Shown here: piece after piece, positions 1-54,372 of the stretch
Numbering within the stretch: the first letter of the stretch is position 1
Layout: every line of letters begins with the position of its first letter
DNA from: a bacterium
Lineage (GTDB): Bacteria > Actinomycetota > Acidimicrobiia > Spongiisociales > Spongiisociaceae
Assembly (NCBI GenBank): GCA_028821235.1
Contig: JAPPGV010000011.1
Location: 1-64,000 of the forward strand
DNA: 64,000 nt
Direction of reading: 5' to 3'
Notes under the pieces: model-generated
Told to the model about the DNA's origin: nothing
The model's database searches: none
Seen by the model: only the letters and a program-made list of their open reading frames with translations
Program-made: the position numbers and the translations under genes

Positions 1-78
1 GTCAAGGAAGCGGAACGCAGCGACGGGACACCGATGACCGCCAGACCACGCCAGGTTGTTTCGCAGACAGACCACTAC
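1..78 (-). repeat. Left-end copy of a dispersed MITE-like repeat, cut by the window edge
   Basis: Read on the minus strand, this stretch begins with TAGTGGTCTGTCTGCG and aligns by eye with the left part of the element at 28802-28967. About three quarters of some 70 positions agree, including a shared TCGCTGCGTTCCGC block. The TAG that opens it is also the stop codon of the permease gene ending at 75. No gene could be recognised in these bases. The repeat runs off the window, so its other end is not visible. Confidence 0.6.
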
Positions 79-26951: not shown

Positions 26952-27782
26952 CTACTTGATGCCTCCCTGGGTAACTCCCTCTATGACGAACCGCTGACCG
27001 ATGAAGAACAGGATACCCACGGGGAGTATTCCTATGACGGCCGCAGCCATCAACATGTTGATGAAGACGGCGCCCTCCGTCTGGAACGAGACCAAGCCCA
27101 GCTGAACAACTCGCAATTCTGCATCGGCTGTGACGAACAGCGGCCATAGAAGTGCGTTCCACGACCAGATGAACGTGATCAGAAAGACGGTCACCGCCGC
27201 TGCCCGTACAAGGGGAAGCCCGATCGACCAGAAGGCCCTGGCCTCCGAGCTGCCGTCCACGTAAGCCGAGTCGAACAGGTCATCGGGTATTCCCAGGAAC
27301 TCCTGGCGGAACATGAACACCGCGAACGCCCCGGCCATCCATGGCACGACCAGAGCCGCGTAGGTGTTGTACCAGCCGAGATCGTTGATGAGCACGTAGT
27401 TGGCGATGAAAGTGGCCTCGAAGGGGATCATGAAGCTGGCCAGAACCAGCATCAGGATCACCCTGCGTCCCCTGAACCGGATCCGCACCAGCGCATAGCC
27501 CGCCAGAGCGCCGAACAGCACGTTCCCGCTCGCCGAGAGGGTGGCCACGAACAGGGAGTTCATTATCCAGCGCGCCATCATCGTCTCGCGGAAGATGTCG
27601 ATGTAGGTGATGATGGACGCCGTTTCGGGAATGATGGTGGGAGGTACGAGCAAAGCCTCGTCAAGGGGCTTGAGGGAGGTTGTCACCATCCAGTAGAGGG
27701 GCGCCAGGGCGAAGGCGCACAGCACGAAAAGGACAAGGTGGGCTGCCAGCCTGGTCTGGGGGGCATTGTGGCCGGTGGCCAT
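26952..27782 (-). CDS. Sugar-type ABC transporter permease (UgpE/MalG-like)
   Basis: This 276-residue permease has six predicted spans and an EAA loop (DSAYVDGSSEARAFWSIGLPL) near residues 175-195, the MalG/UgpE pattern. The ATG at 27782 overlaps the UgpA-like stop codon (TGATG), showing tight coupling. A much longer open frame continues upstream to 28937, but it overlaps the UgpA-like gene and has no family homology, so it is not used. No ATP-binding gene is in this operon. The cell probably uses a shared MsiK-like ATPase, as is common in actinobacteria. Confidence 0.9.
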   Translation of the reverse strand: MATGHNAPQTRLAAHLVLFVLCAFALAPLYWMVTTSLKPLDEALLVPPTIIPETASIITYIDIFRETMMARWIMNSLFVATLSASGNVLFGALAGYALVRIRFRGRRVILMLVLASFMIPFEATFIANYVLINDLGWYNTYAALVVPWMAGAFAVFMFRQEFLGIPDDLFDSAYVDGSSEARAFWSIGLPLVRAAAVTVFLITFIWSWNALLWPLFVTADAELRVVQLGLVSFQTEGAVFINMLMAAAVIGILPVGILFFIGQRFVIEGVTQGGIK

Positions 27783-28783
27783 CACGCCGTCCCCGCCGTG
27801 TAGTGGACCCACCGCCGGCTCAACCGGAACTGGAGCCAGGTGACCACCAGGATGATCAGGAACAGGGCGGTGGCCGTGGCCGCTCCCAAGGCGAACAGGT
27901 TGTCGCCCCAGAACTGCCGGTACATGAGCATCGACAAGGTTTCTGTCGTCCGGGCCGGGCCACCCTGGGTCAGGACGAAGATCGTGTTGAACTCGCGCAG
28001 GGCGAACACCAGGGAGACGACCACCACGAACAGGATCGTCGGGGAGAGCACCGGGATCACCACCCTCCGGAGGATCTTCGGTTCGCTGGCGCCGTCCACG
28101 CGGGCCGCGTCCAGAAGATCCGGGTCGATACGGGTCATGCCCGCGTACAGGATGAGAACGGTGAACCCGAGCATCTGCCAGAACCTGACCAGCAGCAGGA
28201 TGGCCATGGCGATGCTCGGGCCCTCGGCCCAACCCGGAACGGTGGCGCCGAACCAACCCGCCACCAGTTCGACGACACCGGTCGAGTCGAGGATCCACGA
28301 CTGGCGCCTTATCCCGAATGGCTGGAGCGACGCGTTGACGACTCCGGTCGGGCTCGGGGCGAACACGAGTCCCCAGACGAGGCTGGTGGCGACGGTGGGA
28401 ACGATGAAGGGAACGAACAGCAGGAGCCGGTAGAGGTAGCTCTTGCGGATCACGTAGTGGAGAAGGTAGGCGACCGGGATGGCCACTATCACAGTGACCG
28501 GCACCACGAAGGCGAAGAAGAAGGTCACCTTCACCGAGTTCCAGAAGTCGCCACCTTGGACAAGGTCGATGTAGTTCGTGAGGCCGATGAACTCGGCGCC
28601 GGCCAGGGTCCAGTTGGTGAGCGAGAGGTAGATGTTGCGACCGGTCCCGTACAGGTGGAATACCCCAATGACCAGCAGGGCAGGCAACAGGAAGAGGAAG
28701 GCAGTGGCCGGCGAACTCGTGCGAGAGGAACGCCGCCAGCGCCATCGACCCGCGGACGTCCACCGCGAACCTCCTGCGACCAT
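27782..28783 (-). CDS. Sugar-type ABC transporter permease (UgpA/MalF-like)
   Basis: This 333-residue permease is the partner of the UgpE-like protein. The first hydrophobic segment is near residues 25-45, followed by five more, with an EAA loop (DAARVDGASEPKILRRVVIPV) around residues 228-248. The N-terminus is unusually Arg-rich and hydrophilic, of about 25 residues. ATG at 28783 is chosen; a GTG nine bases upstream is possible. It is the first gene of the eight-gene operon running to 20353. Its upstream region carries the MITE-like element, which may therefore hold or disturb the operon promoter. Confidence 0.88.
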   Translation of the reverse strand: MVAGGSRWTSAGRWRWRRSSRTSSPATAFLFLLPALLVIGVFHLYGTGRNIYLSLTNWTLAGAEFIGLTNYIDLVQGGDFWNSVKVTFFFAFVVPVTVIVAIPVAYLLHYVIRKSYLYRLLLFVPFIVPTVATSLVWGLVFAPSPTGVVNASLQPFGIRRQSWILDSTGVVELVAGWFGATVPGWAEGPSIAMAILLLVRFWQMLGFTVLILYAGMTRIDPDLLDAARVDGASEPKILRRVVIPVLSPTILFVVVVSLVFALREFNTIFVLTQGGPARTTETLSMLMYRQFWGDNLFALGAATATALFLIILVVTWLQFRLSRRWVHYTAGTA

Positions 28784-28801
28784 ACGTGACACCCGTCTGT
28801 C

Positions 28802-28967
28802 TAGCGGTCTGTCTGTGGATTAACTTGGCGTGTTCTGCGTGCCATTCGCGTCCCTCGCTGCGTTCCGCCCCCTCAACGTACCGCAGCGCGTACGCCTTCG
28901 TCAGCGGGCCTTGCGAGGAACACCGCTGCCGACGCATACCACACCGTCATCTCACAGGCAGACCGCT
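28802..28967. repeat. Complete MITE-like element with imperfect terminal inverted repeats
   Basis: The 15-mer AGCGGTCTGTCTGTG at 28803-28817 is repeated inverted, with one mismatch, at 28953-28967. The ~165 bases between do not encode a recognisable protein. Its left part is about three quarters identical to window bases 1-78 and its right end is 27/33 identical to 54256-54288. Size, ends and copy number fit a non-autonomous element or an eroded insertion sequence. It fills the space between the divergent ABC operon and the adenosine deaminase gene and so may carry promoter signals for both. Confidence 0.6.
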
Positions 28968-28984
28968 TAGGCTGCTCCCTGATT

Positions 28985-29983
28985 ATGCCCCAGTCCGGAC
29001 CGGCGCGCAGGAACCTCCGTCAGCTGCCGAAGGCCCACCTGCACCTCCATCTGGTTGGTTCGATGCGGCCGAAGACCCTCACCGCGCTGGCCGAGGAGGC
29101 AGGGATGGCGATGGCTCTCCCGGAGAGCTTCGTCGACTTCAAGCACTTCTACACCGCCTACACGCTGGCGAACCGGGCGGTTCGCAATGCCGAGCACCTG
29201 AGCCGTCTGGTCTTCGAGGTAGTCGAGGATGCCGCTGCCGACGGTGCCGTGTGGGTGGAGCCCACCCTGTACCTTGACAGCTTCAGGGAGGCAATCGGGC
29301 CGGGCGAGCTGATCCTCGACATCGTGGCGGATGCGATCCGGAGGGCCCGCGACAGGGTGGGGATCGGCGCAAGACTGATCGTGGCGGCAGACCGTGATCT
29401 GGGTCCCGCGGACGGCGTGCGCCAGGCGCGCCTCGCCGCCCGCGGGGATCCCGACGTCATCGGCGCGTTCGGCCTGGTGAACGACGAGTTGGCGCACCCC
29501 ATCGAAGACTTCCGCGAAGCCCTCGCCATCGCTTCCAACGCGGGCCTGGCCCTCGTCCCCCACTCAGGAGAGTTCGGCGGTCCAGACCAGGTGGCCGCCA
29601 CTTTGGGTCTGGGGGTGGCCCGCATCCAGCACGGGATCGCCGCCGCGCGGGATCGCGCCCTGCTCCGGCGCCTTGCAGGCAGCGACGTCTGCCTTGACGT
29701 GTGCCCGACCAGCAACGTCGCGGTCGGCGCGGTCGAAAGCCTGGACAGACACCCACTTCCGGACCTGGTAGCGGCCGGAGTCAGTGTCAGCCTCAACGCC
29801 GACGATTCCCTCCTGTTTGGGTGCTCGTTGCTCAGCGAGTACGAGTTGGCCCGCGAGGCGTTCGGGTTCTCCGACCGGCGGATGGCCGCTATCGCCGGAG
29901 CCTCGATCTCCCACAGCACGGCACCGAGATCGCTCAAGTCGATGGCGGAGGCCCGAATCCACCAGTGGATAGCTGCTAGCTAG
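28985..29983 (+). CDS. Adenosine deaminase-family aminohydrolase
   Basis: This 332-residue enzyme deaminates adenosine or a related adenine base or nucleoside to the inosine form. Zinc-site motifs are HLHLHLVGS near residues 18-26, the catalytic Glu196 in PHSGEF, RIQHGI, DVCPTSN and SLNADDSLLFG. The usual HLEGS reads HLVGS here, so Glu is replaced by Val at a non-ligand position. ATG at 28985 follows the repeat element. The gene is divergent from the sugar-type ABC operon and 67 bases before the aldo-keto reductase gene. Adenine deaminase of the same fold is an alternative. Confidence 0.88.
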   Translation: MPQSGPARRNLRQLPKAHLHLHLVGSMRPKTLTALAEEAGMAMALPESFVDFKHFYTAYTLANRAVRNAEHLSRLVFEVVEDAAADGAVWVEPTLYLDSFREAIGPGELILDIVADAIRRARDRVGIGARLIVAADRDLGPADGVRQARLAARGDPDVIGAFGLVNDELAHPIEDFREALAIASNAGLALVPHSGEFGGPDQVAATLGLGVARIQHGIAAARDRALLRRLAGSDVCLDVCPTSNVAVGAVESLDRHPLPDLVAAGVSVSLNADDSLLFGCSLLSEYELAREAFGFSDRRMAAIAGASISHSTAPRSLKSMAEARIHQWIAAS

Positions 29984-52921: not shown

Positions 52922-53694
52922 TCTCCGTGGAGGCCCTCTCCATCACCTACCAGGCTGGACAACCGGTGCTCCGGGACGTGGGGCTCACCGTGGAGGAAGG
53001 GGAGTGGTTGGGCCTGCTGGGGCCGAACGGCGCCGGGAAGTCCACCCTGCTGAGGGCGATTGCCGGGCTCCTCCCCTATCGGGGCATTATCCGGTTCGAT
53101 GGCGCGGACAACGGCTCGCTCCGGCGCCGGGACCGGGCCCGGTCGGTGGCCCTGGTGCCGCAGGAACCGGTCATGCCGGGGGGAATGACGGTGATCGAGT
53201 ACGTGTTGCTGGGACGCACCCCGCACCTCCCCTACCTGGGATCGGAAGGCGCCGCCGATCTGGCGCAGGCGCGGCTGGCCATGGACATGCTCGACCTCGA
53301 GCCCCTGGCGGGCCGCATGCTCTCGCAGTTGAGCGGCGGCGAGCGGCGGCGCGTCGCTCTGGCCCGTGCCATCTGCCAGCAGGCGGACGTCCTGCTCCTG
53401 GACGAGCCGACCGGAGCGCTCGACATCGGCCAGGGCCAGAAGGCCTTGGAGTTAATCGCCCACCTGCGCAGCCGCCGGCCGATGACCATCATCACGGCCA
53501 TGCACGACCTCACCCTGGCCGGACAGTTCCCGGACCGCCTGACACTGCTGGCGGAGGGCCGGGTGGTGGCGGACGGGCCTCCTGCCCAGGTGCTCACCCC
53601 CGAACACATCCGGGCCATCTACCGGGCTAGCGTGGAAGTGGTGAACGTCAACGGAGGACTCGCCGTGGTTCCCATGAGGACCGGGACTCGATGA
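52918..53694 (+). CDS. btuD: Cobalamin ABC transporter ATP-binding protein
   Basis: This 258-residue ATPase has Walker A GPNGAGKST (residues 35-43), signature LSGGERRRV, Walker B VLLLDEPTGALD and the H-loop AMHDLTLAG. The family includes FepC and BtuD. The ATG at 52918 overlaps btuC and its stop overlaps cobO, so four genes are translated in series. It energises import of cobalamin or cobinamide. Confidence 0.92.
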   Translation: MISVEALSITYQAGQPVLRDVGLTVEEGEWLGLLGPNGAGKSTLLRAIAGLLPYRGIIRFDGADNGSLRRRDRARSVALVPQEPVMPGGMTVIEYVLLGRTPHLPYLGSEGAADLAQARLAMDMLDLEPLAGRMLSQLSGGERRRVALARAICQQADVLLLDEPTGALDIGQGQKALELIAHLRSRRPMTIITAMHDLTLAGQFPDRLTLLAEGRVVADGPPAQVLTPEHIRAIYRASVEVVNVNGGLAVVPMRTGTR

Positions 53695-54257
53695 CCAGCG
53701 CCCCGCTCGCCGACGACCCGCGCCGTCCCGACACCCGCCGGGCCCGCTCCGTGTTGATTGTCAACACCGGGGACGGAAAGGGAAAGAGCACCGCCGCCAT
53801 GGGCATGGTCATGCGATCGGTGGCGCGTGGATGGAAGGTCGCCGTAGTCCAGTTCATCAAGTCGGGCGACTGGAAGGTGGGCGAGGAGAAGATGGGCCGC
53901 CACCTCGGCGTCGACTGGGACGTAGGCGGCGACGGCTTCTCCTGGGACAGCGAGGATCTAGAACGGTCCGCCGAGCTGAACCGCGATGTCTGGCGCCTGG
54001 CCAGGATGCGAATCGAGGAGGGCAAGCACCGCCTCGTTGTCCTTGACGAGATAACCTACCCCATCAACTGGGGCTGGATCGACGAGGAGGAGGTGGTCTC
54101 CACGATCGCCAACCGGCCTGCCAACGTCAATGTGGTAGTCACCGGACGTGACGCCCCCGCCGGCCTGATCGAGATCGCCGACACCGTCACCGAGATGCGC
54201 CCCGTCAAGCACGCCTACGACCAGGGCATCAGCGCCATCCGCGGCATCGACTTCTAG
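53691..54257 (+). CDS. cobO: Cob(I)yrinic acid a,c-diamide adenosyltransferase
   Basis: This 188-residue CobA/CobO/BtuR-family enzyme adenosylates corrinoids after import. The P-loop is GDGKGKS (residues 27-33); VVQFIKSGDWKVGEE, LVVLDEITYPINWGW and VVVTGRDAP are typical. It ends the riboswitch-controlled operon. Its stop TAG is shared with the start of a dispersed repeat copy at 54255. The window therefore encodes uptake, adenosylation and nucleotide-loop assembly but not corrin ring synthesis. Confidence 0.93.
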   Translation: MTSAPLADDPRRPDTRRARSVLIVNTGDGKGKSTAAMGMVMRSVARGWKVAVVQFIKSGDWKVGEEKMGRHLGVDWDVGGDGFSWDSEDLERSAELNRDVWRLARMRIEEGKHRLVVLDEITYPINWGWIDEEEVVSTIANRPANVNVVVTGRDAPAGLIEIADTVTEMRPVKHAYDQGISAIRGIDF

Positions 54258-54288
54258 TGATCTGTCTGTGTAATGGCGGTGTGGTATG
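54255..54288 (+). repeat. Right-end copy of the dispersed MITE-like repeat
   Basis: This 33-base segment is 27/33 identical to the right end of the 28802-28967 element in inverted orientation: AGTGATCTGTCTGTG, then CGGTGTGGTATG. It starts inside the cobO stop codon. Weaker similarity may extend to about 54320. A palindrome, CCACTAGTGG (54323-54332), follows, and the rest of the gap to 54372 shows no gene. Confidence 0.5.
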
Positions 54289-54372
54289 GCCGCCGGAGCA
54301 CCCGGTTGTTCCGCAGGCAAGACCACTAGTGGCCGGTGGCCGGGAGCTAGTGGCCACCCACCGGCGAACCGC

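Follow-up and report, generated by a model that had tools for sequence, protein, structure and literature searches.

The window, by which we mean the whole 64,000-nucleotide stretch analyzed here, starts at base 1 of contig C11 and contains three copies of a short repeat with inverted ends (Table 1). The full-length copy sits between two divergent genes, one for an ABC permease (27782 to 28792, minus strand) and one for an adenosine deaminase (28985 to 29983, plus strand), and on its right an additional T precedes a TA at 28968 to 28969. The copy at the left border of the window ends at the contig edge. The third copy is found at the end of the cobalamin adenosyltransferase (CobO/BtuR) gene (53691 to 54257, plus strand), with TA at 54255 to 54256 before it and TAG at 54327 to 54329 after it. 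An internally deleted copy of about 70 bp that likewise has both ends and no core was seen at a different locus (L078:5621-5689).

An earlier note on this DNA had described a repeat with inverted ends at 28802 to 28967, and this repeat is real; the element proper spans 28804 to 28966, with the TA outside. Its count of three copies in 55 kb is correct for the window. The left part that it placed at 1 to 78 is present, but it lies in the opposite orientation and is cut by the contig start, and what it listed as a right end at 54255 to 54288 proved to be more, namely a shortened copy with both ends. The TAG stop codons that it noticed at two sites are also genuine (75 to 77, minus strand, and 54255 to 54257, plus strand).

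Table 1. Repeat copies in the window, their parts and the adjoining target sites
Feature	Positions	Strand	Remark
Partial copy, truncated by contig start	1..75	-	profile match 77->2
CTA (75-77), TAG stop codon of minus-strand permease gene (78-950)	75..77	-	
TA of CTAG target, left flank of full-length copy	28802..28803	.	sequence; relative G010 has CTAGGC without element
Full-length hairpin MITE copy, T1 ends	28804..28966	+	GCGG...CCGC
Left TIR GCGGTCTGTCTGTG (consensus GTGGTCTGTCTGYG)	28804..28817	+	
Approximate conserved core, common to MITEs of the order with other ends	28849..28930	+	
Right TIR, plus-strand letters CACAGGCAGACCGC	28953..28966	-	
Native TAG stop codon of CobO/BtuR gene, overlapping TA target	54255..54257	+	
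Internally deleted copy, ~70 bp, core gone, both TIRs present (GTGATCTGTCTG...AGACCAC)	54257..54326	-	

Copy number, target site and mobility

The source genome contains at least 47 BLAST matches to the element, about 42 of them near full length; these copy numbers are lower bounds, and the genomes are MAGs. The best non-self match within the genome has an E value of 3e-48, and identity among the genome copies ranges from 78 to 99%, with a median of 91%. With up to one mismatch allowed, the 12-base terminal repeat occurs at 161 sites in the genome, compared with 18 for the reversed pattern, and 0 of 2,000 mononucleotide-shuffled versions of the element were matched by the profile. The earlier note would have given up its element had no additional copies been found, which is clearly not the case.

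Oriented copies align over 163 to 168 bp, from GTGGTCTGTCTGYG to CACAGACAGACCAC, with the TA outside and with TIRs of 12 to 14 bp (GTGGTCTGTCTG). A noncoding repeat of 163 to 168 bp, which is below about 500 bp, with TIRs and at least 47 matches has the properties of a MITE, and the earlier description of the element as MITE-like is supported. Among 125 distinct copies, TA flanks the left end in 97, the right end in 68 and both ends in 54, and 42 of these 54 read C-TA-[GTGG...CCAC]-TA-G; CTAG makes up 3.6% of background TA sites. Of 120 copies, 119 retain the first G and the last C, whereas the adjoining TA varies; the element therefore comprises GTGG...CCAC, and the TA belongs to the target, with the G and C lying outside the duplication. 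This corresponds to an IS630-type target, that is, a TA that is duplicated and that preferably lies in CTAG. The right TA is present in only 68 of the 125 copies, and many copies have no clean TA on one side. ISY100, of the IS630-Tc1-mariner group, likewise inserts at TA with duplication of the TA, and in vitro its products sometimes retain the full TA at one end and just an A at the opposite end (PMC2170065); several of the present copies fit this TA/A asymmetry. Autonomous IS630 elements are about 1.15 kb long and carry a transposase, whereas the present element has none.

Mobility of the element is apparent from orthologous sites at which copies are missing. The relative G006 shares the copy at 28802, which G003 and G010 lack; the empty site of G010 is a clean CTAGGC, and that of G003 reads TAGCGGTAGG, apparently with 6 bases left over from the left end. 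Several further empty-looking sites retain TAGTGGTC or CCACTAG, with 6 to 10 bp of TIR left at some of them, and therefore insertion or loss can be imprecise. We read these TIR remnants as probable traces of imprecise hairpin loss; alternatively, the element could target such TIR-like tips.

The copy at 54257 is absent in five relatives (G002, G003, G005, G006, and G007), in all of which the CobO/BtuR gene ends in an identical TTC-TAG. Since these relatives share TTC-TAG without the element, the stop codon was the target of this copy and was not made by it. In 31 of 164 cases, a boundary TAG terminates a frame that is 300 codons or longer; in the other two frames the count is 14 of 328. The earlier note suggested that the element may insert at gene ends or create them; insertion at gene ends is therefore supported, and their creation is not supported for the 54257 copy. 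In pneumococcal BOX repeats, 36 copies supply a stop codon at the extreme 3' end of a gene (PMC3049150). The siting of the present element at stop codons is simply explained by a CTAG target together with TA duplication, which preserves the TAG codon.

Tandem copies occur in several genomes. At ten loci (L009, L014, L017, L024, L054, L060, L071, L086, L131, and L140) they share one odd linker, CAGACAGAC-GCGA(T/A)A-GTGG, and other tandems are joined as CCAC-A-GTGG; tandem dimers may transpose as units. At one orthologous site, the copy in L134 has the opposite orientation to those in L105, L108, L116, and L027, and the same holds for L120 relative to L015.

Distribution and putative partner transposase

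A DNA search recovered the element from eight of nine other genomes of the genus and, elsewhere in the family, from one further genus. No copy at all is present in one congeneric species, represented by G009 (2.3 Mb, 95% complete). An exact 25-base word from the core has at least 100 occurrences among named Acidimicrobiia MAGs, including those of isolates SB0661, SB0664, CO36387, CO36404, and RHO1, which, like others in the set, we take to come from marine sponge microbiomes. A typical copy is also carried by a contig filed under a Terriglobia MAG from sample SB0661 (L069, VXMF01000049.1), which was probably misbinned from an Acidimicrobiia MAG of the same sample. A scan of 138 genomes of the order with a sequence-only model (R1), whose E values are rough, found relatives in 53 genomes from seven families, with at least 78 matches in G089 and at least 63 in G137; many of the matches cover the interior only.

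No match to the element was found in plasmids and phages. The sole match of the core to plasmids, 44 bp at 84% identity in Sinorhizobium pSymA (NC_003037.1, 1030637 to 1030680; E value, 2e-3), recurs in 44 Sinorhizobium records and may be due to chance. In IMG/VR, the 16-base TIR gave 11 hits, about chance level by a rough estimate, and a 20-base core word gave none.

At an E value of ≤1e-3, the source genome and its genus (ten congeneric MAGs) yielded no IS630 transposase; the one weak hit in the genus, in G007, is a rve/Mu-type transposase. The earlier observation that no transposase is visible thus holds for the whole genus, so far as the MAGs show. The lack of a partner in the source genome is not decisive, this genome being a MAG, and a partner transposase in the same genome is not required of MITEs. 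Within the loci retrieved, no longer transposase-bearing element with the same ends was found. The IS4/IS5-type DDE_Tnp_1 genes of the genus were rejected as partners for the T1 ends, which are missing at their borders; one DDE_Tnp_1 locus rejected in this way later turned out to be a partner of the T3 ends described below.

Complete IS630 elements of 1,142 to 1,159 bp are present in the same order. They begin C|TAGTGGT..GTCGC, carry TAGTGGTNNGTC... at both ends, nearly all directly after a C (i.e., in CTAG), and encode proteins assigned to DDE_3 and NF033545. The order-level T1 TIR (TAGTGGTCTGTC) agrees with the IS630 fragment L228 at 22 of 22 scored bases, with one free position, and the TIR of the genus agrees with IS630 ends over about 12 bp only and then diverges. 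The TIRs therefore match an IS630-family element, over about 12 bp in the genus and at 22 of 22 bases for order-level T1. As the search of the genus gave no IS630 transposase, the copies there look orphaned, the enzyme presumably being gone from the genus or unassembled in it. In two IS630 elements (L210:1393-2508 and L209:1393-2514) the transposase frame reaches the TIR, and its stop codon seemingly comes from the flanking target TA(G).

The earlier note had likened the ends to those of IS256, and an IS256-type MITE would account for the GG near the ends. This origin is not borne out, and we give it practically no credence: the target is a TA dinucleotide in CTAG and not an 8- to 9-bp duplication, and the matching ends are those of the complete IS630 elements of the order.

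Hairpin fold and conservation

The whole element is a quasi-palindrome, with a folding energy of -73 kcal/mol (z score, -3.8) for the window copy. Individual T3 and T2 copies likewise give better folds than their shuffled versions (z scores, -4.6 and -5.0). An alignment of 20 copies chosen across all end classes (A2) gives a predicted full-length rod with two apical hairpins, in which 83.8% of cells are paired, compared with 71.2% after shuffling. Two-sided changes affect 32 pairs and 128 cells in A2, compared with 43 in the shuffled and 21 to 43 in the slid controls; the structure was derived from A2 itself and is for that reason favored over the slid controls, and the two-sided count is still large. 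The inner helix covaries as well, beyond the TIR stem (13 of 22 pairs). RNAalifold applied to close copies missed the end-to-end stem, which was recovered with the consensus fold and the wide alignment. This strong covariation along the whole hairpin supports a conserved single-strand fold and would be compatible with selection on RNA, with selection on DNA, or with template switching that keeps the palindrome matched. In the apical loop, A2 columns 73 and 107 show G-C/C-G swaps within several end classes, with 19 of 20 copies paired, hinting at a possible tertiary contact.

Hairpins of this kind could also be palindromes of the REP/BIME or IS200/IS605 type, which a Y1 (RAYT-like) transposase would move in single-stranded form, and the whole-element hairpin, the tandem copies, and the imprecise TSD of many copies would agree with this. 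We nevertheless regard such an origin as very improbable: Y1/RAYT transposases (Y1_Tnp) were found in 0 of 12 genomes, the source genome included, the copies have TA/CTAG flanks and true TIRs of 12 to 14 bp, and the ends match DDE elements.

A structured RNA or terminator used by the host, spread by transposition and kept for a role at 3' ends or between genes, would be consistent with covariation over the full length and with the boundary TAGs that close long frames above expectation. It would likewise agree with the finding that, in 26 of 30 orthologous pairs, conservation is higher in the element than in the adjoining 100 bp, although some of the flank alignments are poor; either gene conversion or selection would explain this higher conservation. 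Against a host role, presence at one site varies between close species, one species of the genus does without copies, and compensated hairpins also arise from gene conversion or template switching. No Rfam covariance model matched at the gathering threshold, and none matched at an E value of ≤1. We consider the host-RNA reading unlikely, although it is the most plausible of the rival explanations discussed here.

One core on several end types

Sixty distant regions again contain hairpins of 163 to 173 bp at CTAG/TTAG-like sites, with differing ends. At least five end types can be distinguished on the basis of about 60 sampled copies from MAGs: T1 (TAGTGGTCTGTC), T2 (TTAGTGCTCCCCACCGTAATTACG), T3 (TAGGAGACTGGTGTG), T4 (TAGTGTCCTGAGTC), and the rarer T5 and T6. 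In G089, the 32-base ends of T2 and T3 are 0.28 and 0.32 identical (0.32 when shuffled), whereas the T2 and T3 cores are 0.92 identical on average and the best pairs reach 0.99. In G137, T1 and T2 ends are 0.46/0.44 identical, and their cores are 0.91 identical. Of 46 comparisons, 29 placed the closest core on other ends within the same genome, and 17 placed it on the same ends within another genome.

A complete IS1182-family element (G013:C243) has a right end that agrees with the T3 end TAGGAGACTGGTGTGAAATG at 18 of 18 positions, with about 3e-5 such matches expected; the left end of this element matches T3 at 13 of 20 positions, and its protein scores 295 bits with NF033551 (cut-off, 270). 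IS1182 ends are found on the T3 relatives and not on the window copies. T4 and T6 resemble IS630 ends (0.76 and 0.75), and no matching IS was found for the T2 and T5 ends in the loci examined. From these sequence comparisons, we conclude that the core is carried on ends that belong to two or more transposase families unrelated to each other.

The simplest competing account is a single MITE lineage, in which the ends of one IS630-derived palindrome diverged gradually with their transposases and the core more slowly, with no exchange of ends. T1, T2, T4, T5, and T6 all begin with (T)TAGTG, the lengths are similar, and the T1 and T2 ends retain some similarity (0.46, compared with 0.34 for shuffled ends). 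The T3 copies, however, combine IS1182 ends with a core 92 to 99% identical to T2 cores of the same genome, and the closest core more often lies on other ends in the same genome, as in the 29 comparisons above. Since T3 has IS1182 ends and T1 has IS630 ends, gradual divergence of one IS630 MITE cannot explain the family, and we hold a single lineage to be quite improbable.

We therefore favor a chimeric origin: the element in the window is very probably an IS630-end member of a MITE family in which one conserved hairpin core is combined with ends from two or more unrelated families of transposases. This order-wide family has a hairpin body of about 110 bp and a 75-bp core common to different ends, including those of IS630 type (T1) and IS1182 type (T3). 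By the chemistry of IS630/Tc1-mariner elements, an IS630 transposase acting in trans would have cut the element at its TIRs and pasted it into TA, a proposal based on the matching ends in other families of the order. The mobilizing enzyme would now be absent from the genus or unassembled in it. The core would have passed between sets of IS ends by recombination or by replication template switching between hairpins, and the lineage would survive the loss of any one transposase by changing its partner.

Small repeats with some of these properties have been described. RUP of Streptococcus pneumoniae is a small hairpin MITE with a TA target and ends like those of IS630-Spn1 (PMC2229807, PMC3049150). 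The present element shares these properties, but RUP is AT-rich, measures 107 bp, and has its partner in the genome, whereas no partner is visible in the genus studied here, and the core is also found on other ends. The Correia elements (NEMIS) of Neisseria are about 155 bp long, with shorter internally deleted forms, TIRs of 24 to 26 bp, and a terminal TA, and inversion at a fixed site has been reported for them (PMC2229807, PMC10969869). The present element resembles them in size, internally deleted forms, and terminal TA, and its flip of orientation at two orthologous loci parallels the Correia inversion; no sequence relation to Correia was detected (no Rfam hit), and we found no report in the literature of a Correia interior on the TIRs of another transposase family. 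BOX repeats are also modular, but their modularity concerns the number of inner box repeats between fixed ends, whereas here the core is constant and the ends change. In the literature searched, we came across no case in which the ends are exchanged while the core stays fixed, although this does not prove that such cases do not exist. We know of no ordinary transposon remnants that carry one core on unrelated ends.

A more far-reaching reading, which we put forward tentatively and hold to be possible rather than probable, is that the persistent unit is the hairpin core and not the MITE. The core would then be a selected module of 75 to 110 bp of single-stranded DNA or RNA that survives by switching its IS ends (IS630, IS1182, and others), is homogenized within each genome, and has spread through one order of the Acidimicrobiia.

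MITEs are usually regarded as deletion products of one IS and as dependent on that IS. A core about 92% identical on unrelated ends in one genome implies that a non-autonomous element can change its partner. Such a change of partner would account for the persistence of MITE families after their transposases are lost, and it prompts one to ask what role of the core hairpin leads to its retention.
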